64,000 bases of DNA from Magnetospirillum sp. GTDB lineage: Bacteria; Pseudomonadota; Alphaproteobacteria; CACIAM-22H2. The notes below the pieces were generated by a model. The model had not been told where the DNA came from. It did no database searches and saw only the letters and a list, made by a program, of their open reading frames with translations. Each line of letters begins with the position of its first letter. Position 1 is the stretch's first letter. The DNA is taken from contig JAPZUA010000001.1 of the NCBI GenBank assembly GCA_027532905.1, positions 599,950 through 663,949 on the forward strand. The letters run 5' to 3'. This document shows, piece by piece, positions 81 to 59,680 of this stretch. The position numbers and the translations under genes were made by a program.

Positions 81-635
81 ATGCCGCGCTTTCGCGACCA
101 ATCGCTGATCCCGACCGAAGCCGTGCGTTTGACGGCCTTGGGCGAATTGGCGCGCGCGGAAATGAGCTTGGGTGCTTTGTCGGCGGCCGTGCGCGGCTTC
201 GTCTCCAGGCTCATGGGCCCATCGCTCGACGTTTTGGGCCTGTCGATCGAACAGCTGCGGTACGAAGACCTCGTCGAGCCGCGCGGCAAGCGGGCCGGGC
301 CGGGGCAGAGCCTGTCGGCCGACACGGTGCTGGCCCTCACCGACAAGGGCCGCGAAAAACTGTGCGACATGCTACGCAGCCCCGTGCGGGCACCCATGAC
401 CGATCTTTCCAAGATGGTCGTCGCCCTCAAAATGCGCTTTCTCGATCTTCTGCCCGAAGAAGATCGGGGTCCCCAAGTCGAGCAGCTCGTCGAAATGGCC
501 GAGATGGAAATCGCCAGGCTGCAGGACCTTGCCGCACGAAACGCCGACGGTCTCTTGGGCGAATGGCTCGCGCACGACATCGGCGAAGCCATGCGTTGGC
601 GCGACTGGTATCGCGACCATCTGGCGAAGCTCTAA
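81..635 (+). CDS. PadR-family transcriptional regulator
   Basis: This 184-residue protein is predicted to be a cytoplasmic DNA-binding regulator. The first ~100 residues form a winged-helix region (EAVRLTALGELA opening helix, LALTDKGREKL in the wing/third helix). The C-terminal ~80 residues are helical and match the PadR/virulence-activator alpha C-terminal dimerisation region (EMEIARLQDL). PadR proteins usually respond to small ligands and control nearby genes, but the target here is unknown. Its TAA overlaps the TAG of the opposite-strand permease gene, so the two transcripts collide tail to tail. A more distant wHTH family is possible. Confidence 0.7.
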   Translation: MPRFRDQSLIPTEAVRLTALGELARAEMSLGALSAAVRGFVSRLMGPSLDVLGLSIEQLRYEDLVEPRGKRAGPGQSLSADTVLALTDKGREKLCDMLRSPVRAPMTDLSKMVVALKMRFLDLLPEEDRGPQVEQLVEMAEMEIARLQDLAARNADGLLGEWLAHDIGEAMRWRDWYRDHLAKL

Positions 636-4306: not shown

Positions 4307-4431
4307 TGGTCGGCCTCGCGGCAACGCAGCACGTCGTCCGCGAACCAAAGCCGCTTGGCGTCCGGTTTCCCGAACGGCCTTTTGGCTCCATCGGGGCACC
4401 CCGCCCGACGTGTACGCGACGCGACTACACT

Positions 4432-4603
4432 CGCCGGCAGGTCTCCTGGCTTGCGGGTCTGGGCGGACGCGCCGCCTTCCCGGTTGCCCAGTGGCGAGAT
4501 GACGCGCCGCTCGCCGCTTACAGTTGCGGGGGCAGCCGCAGAATCGGCGCGCAAACCGCGCCTCACTGCATTCCCTATCAATTCCCGAAGGAAACCGACG
4601 GAT
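4432..4603 (-). promoter_or_regulatory. Cobalamin (adenosylcobalamin) riboswitch
   Basis: Read on the minus strand, the conserved cobalamin-riboswitch blocks appear in order. GGGAATGCAGTGAG lies around 4564-4577, the B12 box CCCGCAACTGTAAGCGG lies near 4515-4535, and the closing GCCAGGAGACCTGCCGGC lies at 4433-4450. The start codon of the DUF1636 gene is about 125 nt further on. Such elements normally repress downstream transport or synthesis genes when B12 is plentiful. It should therefore control the DUF1636 gene, solute-binding protein and two permeases. The expression platform was not resolved. Confidence 0.93.
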
Positions 4604-4618
4604 CGACGTTCGCAGACG

Positions 4619-16464: not shown

Positions 16465-17534
16465 GCGCCAACGCGTTCGGAACGCTCTTCCGCTTCTCCA
16501 CTTGGGGGGAGAGCCACGGACCGGCCATCGGCGCTGTCGTGGACGGCGTGCCGCCGCGTCTGCCGCTCAGCGCGGCCGACATCCAAAGCTATCTCGATCT
16601 GCGCAAGCCCGGCACGTCGCGCTTCGTGACCCAACGCCGCGAGCCCGACCAGGTCGAAATCCTGTCGGGCGTGTTCGAGGGGCTCACGACCGGCACGCCG
16701 ATTTCGCTGCTGATCCGCAACGAGGACCAGCGCTCCAAAGACTATTCCGAGATCGCCGAGACCTTCCGCCCCGGCCATGCCGACTACACTTACTGGGCCA
16801 AATACGGCATTCGCGACTATCGCGGCGGCGGGCGTTCGTCGGCGCGCGAAACCGCAAGCCGTGTCGCCGCAGGGGCCATCGCGCGGCTGATCTTGGGCAA
16901 GCAGATCGTGCTGCGCGGTGCGGTCGTGCAGATCGGCTCGCACAAGATCGACCGCCGCAATTGGGACTGGGCGCAGACCACACAGAACCCGTTCTGGTGC
17001 CCCGATGCCGCCGCCGCCCAAGCCTGGGAAGGTGTGCTCGACGCCACGCGCAAATCGGGCTCGTCGATCGGCGCCGTAATCGAGATCGTGGCCGAAGGGG
17101 TGCCGCCGGGCTGGGGAGCACCCCTCTACGGCAAGCTCGACAGCGATCTTGCTGCAGCCCTCATGGGCATCAACGCGGTGAAGGGTGTCGAGATCGGCGA
17201 CGGGTTTGCCGCCGCCGAATTGTCGGGCGAGGAAAACGCCGACGAAATGCGCGCGGGCAACGACGGCCCGATCTTCCTGTCGAACCATGCCGGCGGCATT
17301 TTGGGCGGCATTTCCACGGGCCAGGCGATCGTGGCTCGTTTTGCCGTGAAGCCCACAAGCTCGATCCTGTCGGCCCGCCGCACGATCACGACCAAGGGCC
17401 TCGACACGGAAATCTCGACCAAAGGCCGCCACGATCCGTGCGTGGGCTTGCGCGCCGTTCCCGTGGGCGAGGCGATGGTTGCGTGCGTGCTTGCCGACCA
17501 CAAGCTGCGCCATCGCGGCCAAGTCGGGCCGTGA
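16461..17534 (+). CDS. aroC: Chorismate synthase
   Basis: This 357-residue FMN-dependent enzyme converts 5-enolpyruvylshikimate 3-phosphate to chorismate. All three family signatures are present: [17 protein letters not shown] (residues ~11-27), [17 protein letters not shown] (~125-141) and the C-terminal [16 protein letters not shown]. Full family length. The ATG overlaps the fabI TGA and the aroC TGA overlaps the GTG of the next gene (GTGA), giving a tightly coupled four-gene run. Confidence 0.97.
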
Positions 17535-18109
17535 CTTCGAGCGACGAAAGGCGTGCCGCCGCCGCCGCATTGACCAACGCGGCGCTGGGCAAAACCAAAT
17601 TGCCGCTGCTGGTCGTGCGCCGCTCGCGCCGCCATGCCGGCTTCGGCCTGCTTATGGGCTCGCTGATTTTCGGCTTCGCGGTCGCCGTCGTGTGGTCGGC
17701 GGTCGAAAGCGGCGACGCGATCGGCGGGCCGCTGCTGCTGCTCGCCGTCGCAGCCTGGTACGGCGTGCAGACCGGCAAGATCTTCCGCGACGACAGCCCC
17801 AAACTCGTGATCGAGCGCGCGGGCCTTGCCATGCCGGGCGTCGCCCCCCATCCGATCCCATGGGCGCACATCGGCGAAATCCGCATCGCGACCGGCTTTC
17901 GCGCGCTCGGCGGCGGGCGCATCGATATCGGGCTCGACGTCGAAGCATTCGCGAGCCTCACGCTCGGCCAGCGCTGGATGGGCGATCCCATCGTCAAGCG
18001 CGCGGGCCTGTCGCCCGTCGTGTCGGTGCTGGCCGCAAGCCTCGACACGGACGCACGCAAGATCCTCGACGCCATGCGCCATTACTGGCCGCCCGAGGAC
18101 AGCAACTGA
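17531..18109 (+). CDS. Membrane protein of unknown function with two hydrophobic segments (192 aa)
   Basis: I do not recognise a named family. Residues ~38-58 and ~63-80 form a helical hairpin ([30 protein letters not shown]). The remaining ~110 cytoplasmic residues look like a PH-type beta domain ([27 protein letters not shown]). The GTG start overlaps the aroC stop, and its TGA overlaps the ATG of the nucleoside transporter (TGATG). Co-translation with both suggests a real protein, but its role is unknown. Confidence 0.7.
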
Positions 18110-48076: not shown

Positions 48077-48973
48077 ATGACGCAGATCGCCGCATATCTC
48101 GCCGCCGAAGGCTTCGTGGAACCGCTGCGCGAAGAGCTCGGCACCGTCGTCGCCGAATATGGGCGCCTGCTGATGGCGGAAGGGCCGCCGCGGGCCGCCG
48201 CCTGGGCACAAAATGTGTGGCGCAATCCGCGCGAAATTCCGATCGTGTCGATCGGCGACGGGGTCAAGGCCTTGCGCGCGCTGCAGCGCAACTGGGCATA
48301 CCTGCCGCATCTCGCCCACCGCCGCGGGGCGTTGATCCAGGAGGGCTTGCCGAAAGTATCGGGCAAGCCGCTCGAATTCGGCACCTTCCCGCCGGCAGCC
48401 CCCATGGGGTCCTGGATGCTGCTCGCCCCCGATCGGCTTCTTGCAAGCCCCGATTGCAGCAGCGCCTTCGCGCACGGCGAATGCCGCTTCGTCGAGGATC
48501 GCAGCGGCCCGCCGAGCCGGGCCTATCTGAAGCTCTGGGAAGCGCTGACGCTCGCGGGCGAAATGCCGCAGCCGGGCCAGCGTTGCGTCGATCTGGGTGC
48601 ATCGCCCGGCGGCTGGAGCTGGGTGCTCGCCAAGCTCGGCGCTTCCGTGCTCGCGGTCGACAAGGCGCCGCTCGATGAGAATGTGATGGCCCTGCCCGGC
48701 ATCGAATGGCGCCAGGCAAGCGCCTTCGCCCTCGAGCCCGCCGAGATCGGCCCGGTCGATTGGCTGTTCAGCGATGTGATCTGCTATCCGGCGCGGCTCT
48801 ACGAACTCGTGCAGCGCTGGCGCGAATCAGGTCTCGCCCGCCGTATCGTGTGCACGCTCAAATTCCAGGGCGCCACCGACCACGAAACCGCGCAGCGTTT
48901 CGCGGCGATCCCGGGCAGCCGCCTGCGGCATCTGTTCCACAACAAACACGAGCTGTGCTGGTCGTCGTTTTAG
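48077..48973 (+). CDS. rlmM: RlmM-like 23S rRNA 2'-O-ribose methyltransferase (FtsJ/RrmJ fold)
   Basis: This 298-residue protein has an N-terminal THUMP-like region and a C-terminal Rossmann methyltransferase. The SAM motif is VDLGASPGGWSWVLAKLG (~residues 172-189). The K-D-K-E tetrad of 2'-O-methyltransferases is visible in SRAYLKLWEA, WLFSDVICYP, CTLKFQG and NKHELCW. E. coli RlmM modifies C2498 of 23S rRNA; this one is shorter than the ~360 residues of enteric versions. Its stop overlaps that of the convergent epimerase gene. Confidence 0.85.
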   Translation: MTQIAAYLAAEGFVEPLREELGTVVAEYGRLLMAEGPPRAAAWAQNVWRNPREIPIVSIGDGVKALRALQRNWAYLPHLAHRRGALIQEGLPKVSGKPLEFGTFPPAAPMGSWMLLAPDRLLASPDCSSAFAHGECRFVEDRSGPPSRAYLKLWEALTLAGEMPQPGQRCVDLGASPGGWSWVLAKLGASVLAVDKAPLDENVMALPGIEWRQASAFALEPAEIGPVDWLFSDVICYPARLYELVQRWRESGLARRIVCTLKFQGATDHETAQRFAAIPGSRLRHLFHNKHELCWSSF

Positions 48974-49899
48974 GTCGCAGTACGGCGCAGCCAGTCCAAC
49001 GTCGCCTCGAGCCCCGCTTCGAGGCTCGTGTGCGGCGCCCAGCCCAAGGACCGCAGCCGCGTGCAGTCGCTGAGCGAGAGCCGGATGTCGCCCGCGCGCG
49101 GAGGGGCGAACGCCGGATCTGCGTTCGAGCGCGCCAAGCGCTGCAGCAGCCGCGCCAAATCGAGCACGCTGGTGGCATGGCCCGTGCCCACGTTGAACAC
49201 CGGCGCCGAAACGGAAGCTGCGTCGAGCCCCTTGCGCAAGGCGGCCACCACGTCGGCCACGTACACAAAGTCGCGCGCTTGGCCGCCGTCGCCCTGGATC
49301 GTGCAGGCCTGGCCCTTCTGCACGCGGGCCGCAAAGATCGAGATCACGCCCGAATAGGGGCTGGCCGGATCCTGGCGCGGGCCGAACACGTTGAAGAAAC
49401 GGAAGCCCGCACTCGGCACGCCGTGCACGAGCCCCGCCACGTGCGCATGCAGCTCGCAGCCCAATTTGTCTGCCCCGTAGGCCGACAGAGGCTTGGTCGC
49501 ACTATCTTCGGCCAGCGGCAACTTCGGATTGTTGCCGTAGACCGCCGCCGACGACGCGTAGACGACCGGAATGCCGCCATCCGCACGGCGCGCCGCATCG
49601 AACACATGGATGGTGCCGGTCAAGTTCGTGCGATGCGTGCCCGGCCAATCTTCGGTGCTGCGCTGCACCGACGCTATCGCCGCCAGATGCACGATGCCGT
49701 CCATGCCTTCGGCGGCAGCAGCGACTGCCGCAGCGTCGCCGACATCGCCCACGACGAGTTCGGCGCGCGCATCGAGATTGGCGCGCTTGCCGGTCGAAAG
49801 ATCGTCGAGCACGCGCACGCGATGGCCAGCGCCAAGCAAAGCGTCGCACAGATGCGAGCCGATGAAGCCGGCACCGCCGGTCACGAGATATTTCGCCAT
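48970..49899 (-). CDS. pelX: NAD-dependent sugar-nucleotide C4-epimerase (PelX/GalE-like)
   Basis: This 309-residue extended SDR has VTGGAGFIGSHLCDALL (NAD-binding, residues ~5-21), SSAAVYGN and catalytic YGADK (Tyr-x3-Lys). FNVFGPRQDPASPYSGVI and RDFVYVADVVAAL are hallmarks of UDP-hexose and UDP-HexNAc 4-epimerases. It starts 3 bp after pelG in the same direction and is the last gene of the Pel operon. In Pseudomonas protegens, PelX is a UDP-GlcNAc 4-epimerase feeding Pel polymer synthesis. The same role, supplying UDP-GalNAc, is inferred here from position. Confidence 0.8.
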   Translation of the reverse strand: MAKYLVTGGAGFIGSHLCDALLGAGHRVRVLDDLSTGKRANLDARAELVVGDVGDAAAVAAAAEGMDGIVHLAAIASVQRSTEDWPGTHRTNLTGTIHVFDAARRADGGIPVVYASSAAVYGNNPKLPLAEDSATKPLSAYGADKLGCELHAHVAGLVHGVPSAGFRFFNVFGPRQDPASPYSGVISIFAARVQKGQACTIQGDGGQARDFVYVADVVAALRKGLDAASVSAPVFNVGTGHATSVLDLARLLQRLARSNADPAFAPPRAGDIRLSLSDCTRLRSLGWAPHTSLEAGLEATLDWLRRTAT

Positions 49900-51294: not shown

Positions 51295-52841
51295 CAGGCC
51301 GCCTCGCTGCCAGTACGCGAAACCGCTTTGGTCGGCGCATCGCGGTAGCTTTCGTAGAGCGTGCGGTAGATGCCGTCGATGGTCTTTTTGTTGTAGTAGA
51401 GCTCGACGCGCCGCTTGATGGCGGCGGCGCAGCGCGCATGCCAGGCTTTGTCGCGCAGCAGGCGCGCAAGCGCACGGCCCGTCGCGGCCGGATCGGCAAG
51501 CCCGGTGATCTCGCCGCCGGGTCCAAGTGTTTCGGCTTCGTCGCTGCGCCCTTCGAGCATCTCGCGGCACGCACCCACATCGGTCGCCACGGTGGGCACG
51601 CCGGCCGCCCCGCCTTCGAGGATCACGAGCGGCTGGGCTTCGGACACCGAGGTGAGAGCAAGCGCATCGATGCGGCCGAGCCAGTCGGTGAGCTTCTGCC
51701 TTCCCATGAAGCGCAGCGTGCTTTCGAGGCCGAGAATGCGCACGAGATCGCGGCACTCGGCCGCGTAAGCGGGATCTTCGTCCTCGGGCCCGAGTACCAG
51801 GGCTTCGACGTCGGGCACCTCGCGCTTCACGGCGGCCACGGCACGGATGAAGGTTTTGACGTCTTTGATGGGTACGACGCGGCCGATCAGCGCAACAGTG
51901 GGCTTCCGCCCTTCGTCGGCGCGCGGCACGGCCGCATAGGCGTCGTAGTCGATGCCGTTGGGGATCACGCGCAAGCGCTCAAGCGGCGCGCCGTCGCGCC
52001 GCTGCATGGCTTGGTTGCCTTCGTAGAGGGTCACGATGGCGCTTGCGGTCGAATAGATCGCGCGCGAATAGGCCACGAACGTGTCGATCCACAGATCCTT
52101 GAGATCGCGCCGCGAGCGGTCGACCGCCAGCATGCGCGGCCGGTTCGCCGACAGCCAATCGGCCATCGTGATCTCGATGCGCCGCTCGTTGGTGTAGATG
52201 CCGTGCTCGGTCACGAAACATGGCCGCCCGGTTTCGAGGTGCGCACGTGCGGCCATCAAACCCGCATAGCCGGTCGATATCGTATGGTACACGCGCGCCT
52301 GCGGCAGCGGTGCGAGCAAGGCCGCAAACAGCCCGCCGAGCTGCGCGCGCCACGTCCAGAAATAGTCGAGAAACGAGCAGTCTGGCACGCTTGCATGGTA
52401 CATGCGCACAAGCGCGTTCCACGCGGTCTGCGAATTGAGCAGCGTCTCGGCCCCGAGCCGCGTGCGATAGGGTGCCACAAGCTCGACGATGCGCGCGAGA
52501 TCGGAAATGCCGCCGCGCGCCTGGATCGCGAGCAGCGAAGGCTCGAGTGCATCGAACAGCTTCTTCAAACCGCGCACATGCTTAGGCCCCGCCGCAGGTT
52601 GCTGCAGATACACATGCGTGAGGCCGACCACGTTGTCGGCGATCGGATATTTGAACGCGCGCGCGCGCCGGTCGGCCAGCAGCGCCACGCAATGGAAGGT
52701 CAGATGGGGCTGCGCGCGAATGAGGTCGTTCACCCACGTGGACACGCCGCCCGACACGTACGGGTACGTACCTTCGAGCAGCAGACACACATCCGCGCTC
52801 GGGAAGTTCGCAAAATCGACTCCGGGCTCCGCGATGCTCAT
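51294..52841 (-). CDS. pelF: Pel exopolysaccharide glycosyltransferase (GT4)
   Basis: This 515-residue cytoplasmic GT-B enzyme has PelF-specific N-terminal sequence DVCLLLEGTYPYVSGGVSTW (residues ~18-37), then VYHTISTGYAGLMAAR, TEHGIYTNERRIEI, VIPNGIDYD and the retaining-GT motif SVSEAQPLVILEG (E-x7-E). It polymerises a UDP-linked HexNAc precursor, GalNAc/GalN-rich in P. aeruginosa. It overlaps pelE by 4 bp and pelG by 1 bp. Confidence 0.95.
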   Translation of the reverse strand: MSIAEPGVDFANFPSADVCLLLEGTYPYVSGGVSTWVNDLIRAQPHLTFHCVALLADRRARAFKYPIADNVVGLTHVYLQQPAAGPKHVRGLKKLFDALEPSLLAIQARGGISDLARIVELVAPYRTRLGAETLLNSQTAWNALVRMYHASVPDCSFLDYFWTWRAQLGGLFAALLAPLPQARVYHTISTGYAGLMAARAHLETGRPCFVTEHGIYTNERRIEITMADWLSANRPRMLAVDRSRRDLKDLWIDTFVAYSRAIYSTASAIVTLYEGNQAMQRRDGAPLERLRVIPNGIDYDAYAAVPRADEGRKPTVALIGRVVPIKDVKTFIRAVAAVKREVPDVEALVLGPEDEDPAYAAECRDLVRILGLESTLRFMGRQKLTDWLGRIDALALTSVSEAQPLVILEGGAAGVPTVATDVGACREMLEGRSDEAETLGPGGEITGLADPAATGRALARLLRDKAWHARCAAAIKRRVELYYNKKTIDGIYRTLYESYRDAPTKAVSRTGSEAA

Positions 52842-53968
52842 GCGATCTGGCGCCCGCCCCACAGATTGGCGGCATCGCGCAGCAGCGGATCGGCAGCGGG
52901 ATCCTTGTCGAGCAGCGGTGCAATGCGTGCCGCCACATTGCGCAGCCTTGCATAGGCGCGCTGGCGGAACAGGCATTCGAGATACCAGATCGTGCCGACC
53001 GGCGGCAGGCGTCCGGCCTCGGCCGAGCGGGCGAGCAGTTGGCTTGCCTCTTCGAAAGCTTCGAGCCGCACGAGCAGACGGCCCTTGGCAAGCTCGAGGG
53101 TACCGTTCTCGGGCGTCTTTTCAAGTGCCGCCGAATAGAGCGCCAAAGCGCGCTTGCGGTTTTCGTCCTGGCGTTCGGAATCGAGCAAGCCCGTGAACGC
53201 GTATTCGTCGTAGTGCCGGGCGGCGGCGGCGATCAGCGGCACGTCGCCGGGGCGGCGCGCAAGCTCGCCCTCGAGATCGACCGAGCGGCGCATGAAGCGC
53301 TGTTCGATCTGGGCCACGGCGGTCGCAGCCTGCACGCGGATCGCAGGTTCCTCGTGCGCGAGCGCCGCTTTCAGGGCCGGCGCAAAGGCCGGTTTAAAAT
53401 AGGTGGCGATCAGTGCGAGCAGACCTTGCTTCTGTTCGAACGTGCCGAAGGCCAGTATGTCCGTGAAGCTCGCAACCGAACGGGCGGCCGCGCGATCGTC
53501 GGTGCCATCGCCGACGATCTCCTGGAAGAGGGCACGCGCACTTGCTGTCTTCTGTGCCGGAAACAGGGCCGCATACCATTCCTCGAAACTCGACGTATGG
53601 CGGCGGAACAGCGCGTAAAGAAGTGCGCACAAAACCGTCCCTGCCGCACCGAACGGCCCGGTAAGAGCGGCCGATCCGACCAGCAGATACGGCAAACGCA
53701 GATCGCGTTTGCGATTGGCAACGCTCCAACTCCACGCGCCCAAAACGCCGACCGCACCCGCATGGATCGCCAAGGCCTCAACCACGCCGATTTGGCCCAC
53801 GATCGCCGCAAACCAGCCGAGCGATATTGCAGCACAAGCGGCAAGGCCGAGCAGACAGGTTTCGACGATCGGCACTTCGGCCGCCAGCGACGACAATTGC
53901 GCCAGCATCGCCGTATGTTCGCGGTCGCGCCGCGCCTGCCGCCGCTCGTTGCCTTGTGTCTGGCTCAT
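52838..53968 (-). CDS. pelE: PelE-like membrane/TPR protein
   Basis: This 376-residue protein has several hydrophobic helices between residues ~30 and 120 (VETCLLGLAACAAISLGWFA, LAIHAGAVGVLGAWSW, AAGTVLCALLYALF) and then a helical TPR-type C-terminal half (KALAHEEPAIRVQAATAVAQ, LYSAALEKTPENGTLELAKG). This is the PelE layout, where the protein scaffolds PelD and PelG. The start at 53968 overlaps the pelD stop by 4 bp. Sequence likeness is moderate, so position supports the call. Confidence 0.82.
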   Translation of the reverse strand: MSQTQGNERRQARRDREHTAMLAQLSSLAAEVPIVETCLLGLAACAAISLGWFAAIVGQIGVVEALAIHAGAVGVLGAWSWSVANRKRDLRLPYLLVGSAALTGPFGAAGTVLCALLYALFRRHTSSFEEWYAALFPAQKTASARALFQEIVGDGTDDRAAARSVASFTDILAFGTFEQKQGLLALIATYFKPAFAPALKAALAHEEPAIRVQAATAVAQIEQRFMRRSVDLEGELARRPGDVPLIAAAARHYDEYAFTGLLDSERQDENRKRALALYSAALEKTPENGTLELAKGRLLVRLEAFEEASQLLARSAEAGRLPPVGTIWYLECLFRQRAYARLRNVAARIAPLLDKDPAADPLLRDAANLWGGRQIA

Positions 53969-54954
53969 GGATCCGCCTTCAAACGCGCCGTGCGGCTGGC
54001 ATTGGCGTAGGCGGTACCGATCCATTCGCACAGCAGGCGAAAATTTTCGATCGTCGTGGCCGTGAGATCGAGAAAGCCCATCTCTTCGATCTTGAGCATG
54101 CCGACGACTTCGCCCGTATCGACATTGAGCAGCGGGGCCGCAAGCAGGCCTTCGCCGCGCATCGCCAGGTCATCGGCCTCTACCGCCGCCACGAGCGTGC
54201 GGCGCGAGCCGACGACGGCCTGGAACAAGGGCGAACTGCCGTCGAAGCTGCGCGCGTTTTCGCCTGCTTGCGACGGCCAGCCTTCGTTCATCGCGAGCTC
54301 GAGCACGTCGCCGCGCAGCAGGAACAGCGAATAGCGGCGCGGCCCCATGACCGTGCGCACAAGCTCGCCCACGCCCGCCTCGACCTGCTGGGCCGACATG
54401 CGCTCAATGCCTTTGGCGGCGTTGTAGATCGCGAACACGGTGCGCAGCTGGCCCGCCACGCGCGCTTCAAGGCTTTCGCGCCGTATATCGAGCCTGCGAT
54501 AGGCGGCTGCGATAACCTCTTCGCGCCGGCGCGACTGTTCGAGTTCGGTGCGCAGACCGTCGCGTTCGCGCCGCACGCGGCCCTGCAGCTCGCCGAACAG
54601 CACGGCCGCCACCGCCCACATCAGCGGATCGAGCGTGGCGCGCAAGAGCCAGCCATAGAGATCTTCGTCGAAACTTTGGGCCGGCATATTGCCGACGAGC
54701 AAAGCCGCCGTCGCAGCGACCGCCGCCAGCAGCGCTTCGCCCGTGCCGTACTGCACCGCGCACAGCAGCACGATGAGCCAGAACGGATGCGGCTGCAGGC
54801 TGGCATAGCGGCTGAAGTCGAGGAACAGGAAATCGATCGCCAAGGCCACGATGAAAAAGACCGCAATCTCGACCAACGCCGATTGGCGCACGCCCAGCAG
54901 ACGCGGTGCGGCGTCCTTGGCTTCCGGCACTTGAGGTTGGACTACATCCGCCAT
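53965..54954 (-). CDS. pelD: PelD-like membrane/GAF protein lacking the GGDEF domain
   Basis: This 329-residue protein has four hydrophobic helices (~25-125), a coiled linker (RVRRERDGLRTELEQSRRRE) and a GAF domain at ~155-310 (VFAIYNAAKGIERM, YSLFLLRGDVLELAM, GLLAAPLLNVDTGEVVGMLK). It ends about 20 residues after the GAF domain. P. aeruginosa PelD (455 residues) continues into a degenerate GGDEF domain whose RxxD site binds c-di-GMP. That entire domain is absent, with no downstream frame encoding it. The identity call rests on layout and position between pelB and pelE. Confidence 0.85.
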   Translation of the reverse strand: MADVVQPQVPEAKDAAPRLLGVRQSALVEIAVFFIVALAIDFLFLDFSRYASLQPHPFWLIVLLCAVQYGTGEALLAAVAATAALLVGNMPAQSFDEDLYGWLLRATLDPLMWAVAAVLFGELQGRVRRERDGLRTELEQSRRREEVIAAAYRRLDIRRESLEARVAGQLRTVFAIYNAAKGIERMSAQQVEAGVGELVRTVMGPRRYSLFLLRGDVLELAMNEGWPSQAGENARSFDGSSPLFQAVVGSRRTLVAAVEADDLAMRGEGLLAAPLLNVDTGEVVGMLKIEEMGFLDLTATTIENFRLLCEWIGTAYANASRTARLKADP

Positions 54955-56537
54955 GTCAGATATCCGCCGATCGTCGTTGCCGCCGAAGAATCGCGCCCCA
55001 CGCCGCGCCCATAGCCGGTGCGCAAACCGCCATGCAACGCGCCGTCGCCCAGCCAAGCGGCACTTGCCCCCAGCAAGGGGCCGCCGCGATGGCCGTAGCG
55101 GTCGTAAGCGGGGCCCGCCGAAAAATCCGCCACGATCGGCCACACCGCGTCGAAGGCGCGCTTGAAATCGAGCGTGTAGCCCGCGAGCACGGCATGCACT
55201 TCGCGATAGCGCACCGGAATGGGCCGGTATTCGGCCCCTGCCAACGTGGGGTCGGCGGCGCGCGTGATGCGCCACGGATATTCGCCGTCGAACGCGTAGG
55301 CAAGCGATGCGCCCTGCACAATGCCGTCGAGCGGCAAGCGCAGCTCGCCGTCGAGCGTTGCCAAGCGCGCACCGTCGATCAAGCCCGGCAGGCCGTAGCG
55401 GCTGAGGCCTGCGCGCACGCGCAGATCGAGCCCGAGGAACGCGCGCTCGCCGTATTCAGCGAAGACGCGATCGCGCGTACCGCCGGCCACGAGGCTCTCC
55501 GAAAAATCCCAGTAGGGACGCGCAAGCTCGACGCCGAGGCCGTAGCGCGCAAGATCGCTGACAAGGTCGGTGCTGAGCCCGACACCCAGACGTTCGGCAT
55601 TCGCGAATATCTGGCCGTGCACGCGCGTACCCTCGTCGCCGCGCCAGGCGAGCCCGACGGCGCCGCGCTGGCGCCCGCCTTTGAAGGCGCCGGTCTGTCC
55701 GTTCGCGCGGCGCACGCCGGGGCTGTCGAGCTGCACCGTGTCGAAGGCGGCCGTTGCGCGCCAGGCAAGATTGATCGGCGCTTCGGCCGTCGTTCCGACG
55801 AGATATCGCTTCTCCTGCGAACTTGTGCGCCGATATTCAGGCTCGACGCGCGTGAAAGCGGCGTCGCCGCGCGCAAGTTCGGCGCGTGCCGCGGCGATGT
55901 CCGGATTGCCGGGATCAAGGGCTGCCGCACGCGCTAGCAGATTGGCCGCGCGCAACGGGCGGCCGATCTGACGCTCCACGCTTGCAAGCTGCGCCAGCGC
56001 TTCGGCGTCGCTCGGATCTTCCTGCGTGAGGCGCGCCAGCCTGCCGCGCGCAATGTCGGTCTGGCCGCTCTGCGCTTCGAGGACGGCGCGCAAACGCTGC
56101 AGGCGCCGCTCGGCACGTTCGACCGCTATACCATCGGGGGCCGTTTCGTCGGCCACTTGGCGTTCCGGCAAACGCAGCACGAGCAGCACGCCGCCGTCTT
56201 CGCGGCGCAGCGTGGGGCTCGCATCCTGCGTGCCGACAAACACAAGCGTATCGAAGCCGCTGGTCACGGTCTCGACGAAACGTGCGAGGTCGCGCTGCAG
56301 CCCGCCCGCCTCGAAGGCCGCAACGGGGCGCGCAAATCGCAGCACGGCTTCGCGGCCTTTGGTTTCGAGGCGCATTTCGACCGGCGGCACCGCCACGATG
56401 CGCACATTGGCAAGCGGCCCTTCGCTCGACCACGTCATGTCCAGGCGCGGCGGGGCCGTTTGTGCGGCAAGCGGCACCGCGACGCCAAGCAACGCCGCGA
56501 AAGCCGCAACAAGGAAGAGGCGGATCCGCGCGCTCAT
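54942..56537 (-). CDS. PelB C-terminal part: outer-membrane beta-barrel with short TPR region
   Basis: This 531-residue protein has a cleavable signal peptide (to AAQTAPP, ~25), a beta-rich N-terminal domain (~30-125), a TPR-like stretch (~145-225) and then alternating short amphipathic strands ending in GGYLTWRM. A final aromatic before a terminal residue is the usual end of a barrel. In Pseudomonas this barrel is the C-terminal portion of a single 1193-residue PelB through which polymer leaves. Here it is a separate gene overlapping the TPR gene by 4 bp and pelD by 13 bp. Confidence 0.8.
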   Translation of the reverse strand: MSARIRLFLVAAFAALLGVAVPLAAQTAPPRLDMTWSSEGPLANVRIVAVPPVEMRLETKGREAVLRFARPVAAFEAGGLQRDLARFVETVTSGFDTLVFVGTQDASPTLRREDGGVLLVLRLPERQVADETAPDGIAVERAERRLQRLRAVLEAQSGQTDIARGRLARLTQEDPSDAEALAQLASVERQIGRPLRAANLLARAAALDPGNPDIAAARAELARGDAAFTRVEPEYRRTSSQEKRYLVGTTAEAPINLAWRATAAFDTVQLDSPGVRRANGQTGAFKGGRQRGAVGLAWRGDEGTRVHGQIFANAERLGVGLSTDLVSDLARYGLGVELARPYWDFSESLVAGGTRDRVFAEYGERAFLGLDLRVRAGLSRYGLPGLIDGARLATLDGELRLPLDGIVQGASLAYAFDGEYPWRITRAADPTLAGAEYRPIPVRYREVHAVLAGYTLDFKRAFDAVWPIVADFSAGPAYDRYGHRGGPLLGASAAWLGDGALHGGLRTGYGRGVGRDSSAATTIGGYLTWRM

Positions 56538-59500
56538 GAGCGGTCCTCCAGAACGACGCGCGCTTCGGCATTGCGGCCAAGCTCGATCAGCACGCCCGCA
56601 TAGTCGGCGCGCAGATCGCGATTGCCGGGCTGGGCGCGCAGCAGACGCTCGAACAGTTCGACCGACTGGTCGGCAAGGCCGACGCGGAACAGCGCATAGG
56701 CCTTAGCCGCCTGCACATAGGCGGGCGGGGCTTGCAGCTTGTCGATGGCGGCGATTGCGGCTGCGTGCTGAACGCGTGCGGCGGCACGGTCGCGTAGCCG
56801 CACCGCGATCTCGCCAAGCGCGTAGTGCGCCTCCCAATCGCTGGCTGTTTGGCCAACGGGCCCGGCGAGATAGCGCTGCAGCAGATCGCGCGCACGCGCA
56901 ATGTCGCCGGCCGCATAGGCTGCAAGCCCAGCAAGGCGCTGGGCGGCCGGGCGCGAGGGATCGAGCAGGAAGAGTCGGTCGAACGCCTGGCGTGCGAGAT
57001 CGTTGCGGCCCAGCGCTTGCGCAAGTTCGCCCGCACGCTGTGCGAAGTCCGGCACCGTTTCGTTTGCGATGCGCGCTTCGATGAGCCGCAAGGCTTCGGC
57101 ACGCCCACCTGCGGCCAGATAGATTTCAGCCGCAAGCAACGCCGCCGCTCCGCCGGCACGGCTGGGCTGGGCTGCGTCTTGCGCCAGCAATTCGGCCGCA
57201 CGCGGCGCGGCACCCACATTGCGCAGCACGTTGATCCAGCCCATGCGCGCGTTGCCCGACGAAGCCTTCGCCTGCGCTTCGATCCAGGCAAGCTGTGCGG
57301 GCTCGGGTCGCGGACCCATCACGTAGAGCGCTTGCTGCGCGGCCGTGCTGTCGGCCGGTTGGCCCTCGGCGATCTGTTGGTAGAGTGCAAGGGCCGTGGC
57401 CTTGTCGCCAAGATCGAGAACGCGATAGGCCAAAGCGCTGCGCTGGCTTTCGTCGAGGCCGGGCTTCTGCGCGCGCGCCACAAGGCTTGCCAGCAACTCG
57501 CCCTGCAGACCCGCGCGCTCGAGCGCCAGATCGAGCGCGTCTTGCCATTCGCCGCCAATGTCGGCCGCCATGCGGCGCAAGACGCCGAGCGCTTGGGCGG
57601 GCGCAAGCTCGAGCAGCGCATAGGCCGCGTTTGCGCGTGCTTGCGGCGGCAAAGCACCGTCGCCCGCCACCGCCTGCAGCAAGTCGACGACAGCCGATGC
57701 ACGCCCGGCCGAGCGCGCCACGCTCACGTAAGCGCCGAGCCATTCGCCGGGATCGCGGCGGGCCCGGCGAGCAAGCTCGGGCAACGCGTCGTCCCATGCG
57801 CGCTGGTCGATCAGCGCATAAAGCGCTTCGTCGCGTGCGGCTTGGCGCAAGTTTGCGTCGGCAAGGCGGCTGCGCCAATACGTGCGCAATTCGGCGCGCG
57901 CACCGGCATCGTTGCGCGCCGCCTGGCTCAAGCTTTCGCGATAGAGATATTCGGCCTCGTCGCCGCCCGGATCTGCGCGCAAGGCACGCGCCTCGGGCAG
58001 AGCTTCGAGTGCGCGACCTGCGGCTAGTGCGGCCTGCGCCACGCGCAGGCGCGATTGCGGCGTGGGGCCTTCGAGCGCGCGGAGGCGGCGTGCGGCGGCA
58101 AGCTGCAGCGAAGGCGCCTTTGCGTCGGCACCCACAAAAAACAGATCGGTCAATGTCTGCGACGACAGCGCGGAACCGTCGGCATCGAGCCACGCGGCCA
58201 CCGCATTGGCTCTGCCCGACAACGCACTCGTAAGCGCCCAGCCCGTGACGGCCGCCAACGACTGCGGCCGCTCGCGGCGCAAGCGCTCGAACACGACGGC
58301 CCCGTCTAGCGTGCGCTTGAGGGCGATATAGAGCTGCGCCATGTCGCCGATCGCCGTTTCGGGCAGATCGGCATCGCGCGCCGCTGCTTCGAGCAGGCGC
58401 AAAGCGCGCTCGGGCATCTCGAGGCTCGCGAATATCTGCACGAGGTCGAGCGTGTCGCCAAGCGTGCGGCCAGGCACTTCGGCGGCGCGCATGGCAGCAG
58501 CAACGGCGAGATCGCGCTGGCCGACCGCCAGATGCATGCGCGCCGCCAGCATCGGCGCTGCCGCGAGGCGGGCGGGATCGATGCGGCGCGCAATCGTTTG
58601 CAGCAACGCCGTTTGGCGCAAAGCCAAGGTCTGCTCGATCAACTGCACAAGCTGCGCGTCGCCGAGCGCGCTTGGATCGAGCCGCTCGGCCAGTGCAAGC
58701 GCTTGCGTCTCGCGGCCGGCGGCAAAGCCGAACTCGACGAGATCGCCGAGATAGCGCGGTGCAAAATCGGCGACCCCGCGCGCCATCTGCAAATCGAACA
58801 GGCGTGCGAGCAGCGGGAAGGCTTGCGCATCGGATGCAGCACGCATCAGCGCCATGTTGACGGCCGGGTCGTTGCCCAAACGGCCTTCGACGGGTGCAAG
58901 GGCACCCAGCGCCTCGGCCGCCCGCCCGCGCCCCAAAAAGGCGGACGCGACGACGCCGACAATTTCGCTCGGCGCGTTGGGCGGCAAGCGCGCTTGTGCG
59001 ATCGCGAGTGCTTGCGACACCGCCCCGCTCTCAAGCGCCATGCCGATCCACAATTCGAGCACGCTTGGTGCGATTGCGGTGGGAAAGCGTGCGGCCAATG
59101 CGGCGAGCGTTGCCGCCGCGTCGGCGAATTCGCGCCGGGCCGCGCGCAGCTCGGCCAGATCGACGAAATCCTCGGGCTCGGCGTCGGGCAAGGTGGCGAG
59201 CTGGGCGAGCGCCGCAATCTGCTGGTCGGTGTCGTTGGCAAAACTCGCGAGGGCCACGAGTTCGCGGATCGCAGCACGTGCGGGCTCGAGGCGCACGAGT
59301 TCGACGAGATTCTCGCGCCGTGCCGGCTCGCGGTTGGCCCAGCGAAGATAGATCTGCAGAAGCTTGCGCGTGTCGATAAGTTCAGCGCGTTCGAGCGAAC
59401 CCGTCGCGACGAGGCTGTCGAGCATCGCGATGGCGCGCGAAACGTCGCCTTGCTGGGCGTAGAGACGCGCAAGCGGTGCCACCGTCGCGACCTGCGGGCC

Positions 59501-59680
59501 ATTGCGCGCGAGGCGCGCTTCGAAAAGTTCGAGCGCCTCGCCGAATTCGCGGTCGCGCAGATGCATGGCTGCCCGCTCGGCTTCGCCGGGCAGCACCAGC
59601 AGGCTTGCGGCCACACTCGCCCCGGCAAGCGCTGCCACCATCGCGTACTGGCCGGCCATGCGCCGATAGAGGCCGCTCAC
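56534..59680 (-). CDS. PelB N-terminal part: large periplasmic TPR protein
   Basis: This 1048-residue protein starts with a single membrane anchor (~15-32, AALAGASVAASLLVL) and consists of helix-turn-helix repeats for its remaining length. Clear TPR units occur, e.g. EFGEALELFEARLARNGPQ and LLAQQ-type spacing, up to DQSVELFERLLRAQPGNRD near the end. It matches the scaffold part of PelB, which binds PelA and channels polymer to the barrel. The GTG start at 59680 overlaps the upstream stop (GTGA). The barrel normally fused to it is the next gene. Confidence 0.82.
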   Translation of the reverse strand: MSGLYRRMAGQYAMVAALAGASVAASLLVLPGEAERAAMHLRDREFGEALELFEARLARNGPQVATVAPLARLYAQQGDVSRAIAMLDSLVATGSLERAELIDTRKLLQIYLRWANREPARRENLVELVRLEPARAAIRELVALASFANDTDQQIAALAQLATLPDAEPEDFVDLAELRAARREFADAAATLAALAARFPTAIAPSVLELWIGMALESGAVSQALAIAQARLPPNAPSEIVGVVASAFLGRGRAAEALGALAPVEGRLGNDPAVNMALMRAASDAQAFPLLARLFDLQMARGVADFAPRYLGDLVEFGFAAGRETQALALAERLDPSALGDAQLVQLIEQTLALRQTALLQTIARRIDPARLAAAPMLAARMHLAVGQRDLAVAAAMRAAEVPGRTLGDTLDLVQIFASLEMPERALRLLEAAARDADLPETAIGDMAQLYIALKRTLDGAVVFERLRRERPQSLAAVTGWALTSALSGRANAVAAWLDADGSALSSQTLTDLFFVGADAKAPSLQLAAARRLRALEGPTPQSRLRVAQAALAAGRALEALPEARALRADPGGDEAEYLYRESLSQAARNDAGARAELRTYWRSRLADANLRQAARDEALYALIDQRAWDDALPELARRARRDPGEWLGAYVSVARSAGRASAVVDLLQAVAGDGALPPQARANAAYALLELAPAQALGVLRRMAADIGGEWQDALDLALERAGLQGELLASLVARAQKPGLDESQRSALAYRVLDLGDKATALALYQQIAEGQPADSTAAQQALYVMGPRPEPAQLAWIEAQAKASSGNARMGWINVLRNVGAAPRAAELLAQDAAQPSRAGGAAALLAAEIYLAAGGRAEALRLIEARIANETVPDFAQRAGELAQALGRNDLARQAFDRLFLLDPSRPAAQRLAGLAAYAAGDIARARDLLQRYLAGPVGQTASDWEAHYALGEIAVRLRDRAAARVQHAAAIAAIDKLQAPPAYVQAAKAYALFRVGLADQSVELFERLLRAQPGNRDLRADYAGVLIELGRNAEARVVLEDRS

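Follow-up and report, generated by a model that had tools for sequence, protein, structure and literature searches.

An alphaproteobacterial pel cluster was found to contain a pelD gene whose product ends after its GAF domain. The gene lies in a 64,000-nucleotide stretch of Magnetospirillum sp. (contig JAPZUA010000001.1), here called the window. Pel is a standard case of an exopolysaccharide that is switched on by binding of cyclic diguanylate (c-di-GMP) to a synthase subunit. The window PelD has no C-terminal degenerate GGDEF domain, and the alignment column of the RxxD c-di-GMP site is absent with it. The short pelD is a stable, lineage-wide state and no broken gene. The protein is likely (probability about 0.6) a c-di-GMP-blind scaffold for PelE, PelF, and PelG, with Pel output set by operon expression and not by c-di-GMP binding.

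The short PelD and its conservation in the genus

The pelD gene starts with ATG at 54954 and ends with TGA at 53965; its translation of 329 residues has KADP before the stop. An earlier note on this DNA had given the right coordinates and length, leaving the minus strand unstated, and had described membrane helices and a GAF domain followed by a clean stop. Translation, alignment, and the structure model agree with this anatomy. The only Pfam domain called was GAF_3. About 20 residues precede the first membrane helix, and the N-terminal degenerate SDR domain is absent. Long PelDs could be aligned with the window protein over the transmembrane (TM) region, the coil, and the GAF domain, with 42-54% identity and a single one-residue insertion. 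By homology over the membrane region and the GAF domain, and as a product encoded with pelE, pelF, and pelG, the protein is PelD by descent. PDB sequence searches with the short protein, with A1, or with P0062 as the query did not retrieve PelD. Unlike these searches, a fold comparison of short and long models with solved structures, of the kind proposed in the earlier note, did retrieve it. With the long model as query, Foldseek placed the GAF-GGDEF cyclase Dcsbis (4zmu) first and PelD third.

The absence of the GGDEF domain follows from the protein length, the alignment, a profile search, and the end of the model. The termination point is the helix that runs on into the GGDEF domain in long relatives. 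The tail profile was built from 125 C-terminal tails of long PelDs, and it recovered the domain in 7/7 long-PelD loci given as positive control (E 2e-44 to 2e-22). No GGDEF remnant was found by this profile in any frame of the window, as the earlier note had stated; the best match (17389-18081, E 0.15) is 36 kb away, and the sole match touching pelD (52724-54007, E 4.1) is on the opposite strand. The profile also picked up GGDEF proteins that this genome encodes (best L052, E 6e-7), which is to be expected within the wider family. Because Pfam also fails to call GGDEF in the long relatives P0025, P0031, P0062, P0067, and P0082, the domain loss rests on length, alignment, and the tail profile, and not on a missing Pfam match. 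PF16963 (PelD_GGDEF) gave no match in the genome itself or in the control genomes, and is uninformative here.

A pelD match was detected in 6/11 genomes of the genus, all short, and in 0/12 other genomes of the family; the order-level search covered the same 23 genomes, and some of the 11 are incomplete. This distribution suggests that the cluster was gained by transfer or was lost repeatedly as a whole. The open reading frames (ORFs) of L001-L005 are those of five of the six pelD-bearing genomes. The pelD stop and the pelE start share ATGA in the window, and this overlap, already described in the earlier note, is kept in L001-L005 as ATGA, GTGA, or TTGA. The PelDs of L001-L005 end 13-20 residues past a conserved CEWIGTAY (13 in the window). 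Since all six genomes agree on the short form, a frameshift or sequencing error before the pelE start, which the earlier note had considered as a way to restore the domain, is ruled out.

Ratios of nonsynonymous to synonymous substitution rates (dN/dS) were 0.09-0.22 for PelD in pairs of the window with L001-L005, and 0.06-0.30 when the membrane region, coil, and GAF domain were scored apart. Other cluster genes gave 0.04-0.33, with no internal stops. Nine genes were compared in four loci and seven in L002, where the contig ends inside pelB and the start of the cluster is missing; synonymous sites were near saturation in the three more distant pairs. The last 5-13 residues of PelD gave 0 to 1.2, over a stretch too short to use. 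The dN/dS values indicate purifying selection, and therefore the window pelD is maintained.

Distribution and origins of short PelDs

A PelD match was found in 20/385 genomes of an even class sample: two from the genus, both short, and 18 long, 12 with RxxD and six without. In an even phylum sample, 15/398 genomes had a match; the 17 matches besides the window were all long and all with RxxD. The PelD genomes G000 and G324 occur in each of these samples. Among 299 genomes of the family to which the Neoroseomonas genome (L006) belongs, seven had a PelD match, of which three have RxxD, two are long without RxxD, and two are short. For these three samples, 4-5 candidates were scored per genome, so pelD was possibly missed in some. 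The two short-PelD genomes of this family have 14 and 33 GGDEF matches. They have matches to pelB, pelD, pelE, pelF, and pelG in order, and in one also to GH114, and no deacetylase or epimerase was matched in the stretches read. One of the two short PelDs is identical to the Paracraurococcus lichenis protein P0157.

In total, 231 PelD rows were gathered: 118 with RxxD, 65 short, 47 long without RxxD, and one TM-GAF-GAF. These counts are no frequencies, because short forms served as queries in the second protein search and the short rows include fragments. RxxD is mostly kept in long PelDs elsewhere, and lost in some. The GGDEF-like domain is kept and RxxD is lost in L006, L009, L021, L026, L030-L033, and L065, which have GPTE, GASA, GSSS, SPMV, DEKA, or GAEE. 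P0024, a metagenome protein of 499 residues, has a second GAF domain where the GGDEF domain would be; its nearest relative is the short P0097. L023 and P0178 are PelD-like with about 280-300 residues past the GAF domain, and in L023 the tail part of the profile matches at two places, which makes two GGDEF-like domains possible.

Phylogenetic trees were reconstructed after removal of P0071, P0084, P0095, and P0131 (partial or fragment-like) and P0100 (which looks frameshifted), and then of redundant rows of the same state at an identity threshold of 80%. In a quick tree of 131 rows, using TM-coil-GAF columns only, the short state required at least eight changes, seven of them forced by strongly supported branches. 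In a careful tree of 50 rows, which were chosen after viewing the first tree and with its longest branches left out, six changes were needed, all forced, and a single origin was found in 0/200 bootstrap trees. Clade tests on the 50 rows rejected all short rows as one clade (p 5e-119), and also a union of the window clade and the short clade of Acetobacteraceae type (p 7e-5). Joining the window clade to P0027/P0045 was not rejected (p 0.19), and these may therefore share one loss. The p-values are optimistic, because the tested groups were named after viewing the 131-row tree. By these trees, short PelDs arose more than once, and the window clade and the Acetobacteraceae-type clade look like separate losses. 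The counts themselves are undirected; the changes are read as loss because an alignable RxxD-bearing domain occurs far outside these clades.

Whole genomes stand behind two of the short lineages, namely the genus and the clade of Acetobacteraceae type; for some other changes, the evidence is one metagenome protein each. Among the protein-search rows, DNA was seen for P0157 only, so that isolated short rows read as protein, P0080, P0081, P0149, and P0155 among them, could be artefacts of their contigs. One clade (99 in the SH-like approximate likelihood ratio test, SH-aLRT) contains 20 short rows, 19 long rows without RxxD, two with RxxD, and the GAF-GAF row. Since short rows and long rows without RxxD mix there, site loss and domain loss go together in this clade. 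The window clade has no visible intermediate, as its nearest long relative, P0026, keeps RxxD.

The pel cluster and the c-di-GMP proteins of the genome

The pel genes are on the minus strand (Table 1), in the order pelA hydrolase gene, pelA deacetylase gene, two pelB genes, pelD, pelE, pelF, pelG, and an epimerase gene. The PelA hydrolase and deacetylase, PelB, and PelDEFG expected of a Pel cluster are all found, with PelB and PelE assigned from TPR matches and position. The pelABCDEFG cluster of Pseudomonas aeruginosa has one pelA, one pelB, and pelC ahead of pelD; in contrast, pelA and pelB are split in the window. Here pelB and pelD share 13 bases, and therefore no pelC lies between them; the search for pelC was confined to this junction. 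Separate PelB-TPR and PelB-barrel matches were also seen in L006, L007, L009, L071, and L072, and pelB fission in aquatic thermophiles is mentioned in a passage of PMC7112194. The window PelA deacetylase gene had no match in the stretches read of L006, L009, L071, and L072, of which three have GH114 and L071 begins at a contig end.

Table 1. Features of the window and regions of its PelD
Feature	Position	Strand	Basis or remark
pelA hydrolase part (GH114), own gene, 312 aa	61932..62870	minus	Pfam GH114; PDB PelA 5tcb, E 1e-22
pelA deacetylase part, own gene, 752 aa	59677..61935	minus	phmmer to PDB 9cgy, PelA residues 571-819, E 7e-57
pelB N-terminal TPR part	56534..59680	minus	start set at GTG 59680 from L003 ORF comparison
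pelB C-terminal part, TPR and presumed outer-membrane barrel, 531 aa	54942..56537	minus	barrel assignment inferred
pelD, 329 aa	53965..54954	minus	membrane region, coiled coil, and GAF, without GGDEF
pelE, 376 aa, TPR	52838..53968	minus	named from position and matches in L001-L007, L009, L071, L072
pelF, GT4 glycosyltransferase, 515 aa	51294..52841	minus	NCBIfam NF038011 PelF, E 3e-146
pelG, 463 aa	49903..51294	minus	Pfam PelG, E 1e-118
NDP-sugar epimerase, 309 aa, cluster end	48970..49899	minus	Pfam Epimerase; also in L001-L007, L009
Cyclic-nucleotide-binding domain fused to EAL, 391 aa	36839-38014	minus	about 11 kb from the pel cluster
Cobalamin riboswitch	4419-4614	minus	Rfam, 114.8 bits
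PelD membrane region	model helices 24-44, 58-68, 71-86, start of 99-184		structure model, no membrane predictor
PelD coiled coil	to about residue 186		
PelD GAF	about residues 187-316		
PelD end helix	residues 299-327		predicted model ends after GAF helix

The same genome encodes c-di-GMP proteins, with six GGDEF matches over the cut-off, seven EAL matches (six over the cut-off), and five PilZ matches. Four of the six GGDEF proteins have an intact GGDEF or GGEEF motif with RxxD, one GGDEF-EAL protein (L054) has GGDRF with RASD, and another GGDEF-EAL protein has no RxxD. GGDEF matches occur in 11/11 genomes of the genus, with 4-10 in each. A PilZ domain ends four chemotaxis-receptor-like proteins, L057-L060, by reading of the sequence, with one confirmed by Pfam; the fifth match is L061. 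The only Rfam match in the window and about 9 kb beyond its end, which lies upstream of the cluster, is the cobalamin riboswitch. The protein that joins a cyclic-nucleotide-binding domain to EAL could connect cAMP-type signals with c-di-GMP.

Proposed Pel regulation without the c-di-GMP site of PelD

PelD, PelE, and PelG of P. aeruginosa assemble into a membrane complex, to which PelF is recruited; Pel production is activated when PelD binds c-di-GMP, while assembly is unaffected, as stated in PMC8461298. The same text calls the way in which binding activates the synthase not clear. P. aeruginosa PelD (PDB 4DN0, 4ETX) has a TM-GAF-degenerate GGDEF organization, whereas the window PelD has no GGDEF domain and hence no RxxD. 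The long alphaproteobacterial PelDs of Azospirillum, Caenispirillum, and P0025 share 48-54% identity with it over TM-coil-GAF, and differ by an extra RxxD-bearing GGDEF-like domain, about 127-144 residues long. The Roseomonas-type PelDs (L006 and L009, with GPTE) lack the c-di-GMP site like the window PelD, in genomes with 16 and 13 GGDEF matches, and unlike it keep the GGDEF domain itself.

A PelD without GGDEF is already known as such from streptococci, as described in PMC7112168 and PMC12345266, a precedent that the earlier note did not mention; nor did it mention the recurrence of domain loss and inhibitory-site (I-site) loss in Alphaproteobacteria. According to PMC7112168, PelD of Streptococcus thermophilus JIM8232 is TM-GAF only, as in the window, and the strain makes a pel-dependent biofilm; its short form has been explained by a truncation of the SDR part associated with a transposon, which sets it apart from the window PelD. 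Pel of S. intermedius requires its GGDEF-less pelD, as given in PMC12345266, from which the definition of class IV PelD was also taken. Streptococcal class IV PelDs share the TM-GAF core without GGDEF, and have an N-terminal degenerate SDR domain that is not in the window PelD. The class IV feature of a host without diguanylate cyclases does not hold here, given the GGDEF proteins described above. The absence of c-di-GMP signalling is the explanation offered for the streptococcal forms in PMC7112168. No report of a GGDEF-less PelD in Proteobacteria was recognised in the literature searched, which does not establish that it is unpublished. What was not found in print, in a search that was not complete, is a GGDEF-less PelD that lacks the SDR domain, arose by repeated loss, and occurs in Proteobacteria rich in c-di-GMP enzymes. 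The review PMC10333796 predicts all PelD homologues in its tree to be c-di-GMP receptors; distant ones were picked at >90% query coverage, so this tree would miss short PelDs.

Because c-di-GMP binding leaves assembly unaffected in P. aeruginosa and a GGDEF-less PelD can suffice in streptococci, a scaffold role is preferred for the window PelD. The TM-coil-GAF protein would hold PelE, PelF, and PelG together without the GGDEF domain. It would not bind c-di-GMP through any other part, and it would be active without a ligand. Pel output would then be set mainly by operon expression, that is, by transcriptional control. The direct observations behind this reading are the domain absence, the conservation in the genus, purifying selection, the pel cluster, the GGDEF, EAL, and PilZ genes, and the short PelDs in separate lineages. 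The earlier note had left constitutive production, transcriptional control, a GAF ligand, and another c-di-GMP receptor side by side, which is reasonable as a proposal.

The main rival, possible at clearly lower odds, is that the GAF domain is now the switch, through binding of a partner protein or of a different ligand, for instance a cyclic mononucleotide. The GAF domain is conserved under purifying selection, the PelD-like P0024 has a second GAF domain after the first, and the best solved-structure match of the short PelD model is a cAMP-bound GAF domain. However, the model of a long RxxD-bearing relative matches the same cAMP-bound domain. A scan for parallel changes gave nine positions that the two main short clades have in common and that seldom occur in RxxD forms, but all nine reach 35-85% in long relatives without RxxD, and the scan thus gives no basis for claiming re-tuning of the GAF domain. 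A broader proposal, tentative and with the odds also well against it, is that the c-di-GMP switch of PelD was removed several times in c-di-GMP-rich Alphaproteobacteria, by I-site loss or domain deletion, and that the TM-GAF core activates Pel under another signal read by GAF; a c-di-GMP receptor function would then be no obligatory property of PelD.

It is rather unlikely that c-di-GMP acts in trans on the complex or its promoter, through a degenerate GGDEF protein, a PilZ protein, or a c-di-GMP-responsive transcription factor. The c-di-GMP enzymes of the genome, L054 with its GGDRF and RASD, the cyclic-nucleotide-EAL protein of the window, and L061, the one PilZ match left uninspected, would fit such a route. 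However, no stand-alone degenerate PelD-like domain occurs among the six GGDEF proteins, four of the five PilZ matches are in chemotaxis-receptor-like proteins, and Rfam found no c-di-GMP riboswitch in the window or in the 9 kb that follow it on the upstream side of the cluster. No such receptor is in the pel cluster itself, and transcription factors were not searched for. The missing stand-alone domain and riboswitch weaken the option of another c-di-GMP receptor; the PilZ search suggested in the earlier note did give matches, although mostly in proteins of this chemotaxis type.

A decaying cluster with a PelD that no longer works would suit the patchy occurrence of pelD in the genus and family, but is improbable with intact frames and low dN/dS throughout the compared genes. 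An artefact, in which a long pelD was cut by a frameshift or premature stop or was misassembled, is a thought encouraged by the class and phylum samples, where all PelDs from other genera are long; it is hardly credible against six concordant genomes, the conserved pelE overlap, and the lack of any remnant after the stop.

Natural PelDs without the receptor domain, in cells that keep c-di-GMP enzymes, offer a ready comparison for what the TM-GAF core does alone and for how a gate is replaced. They also call for caution, as the presence of pelD does not equal Pel under c-di-GMP control.
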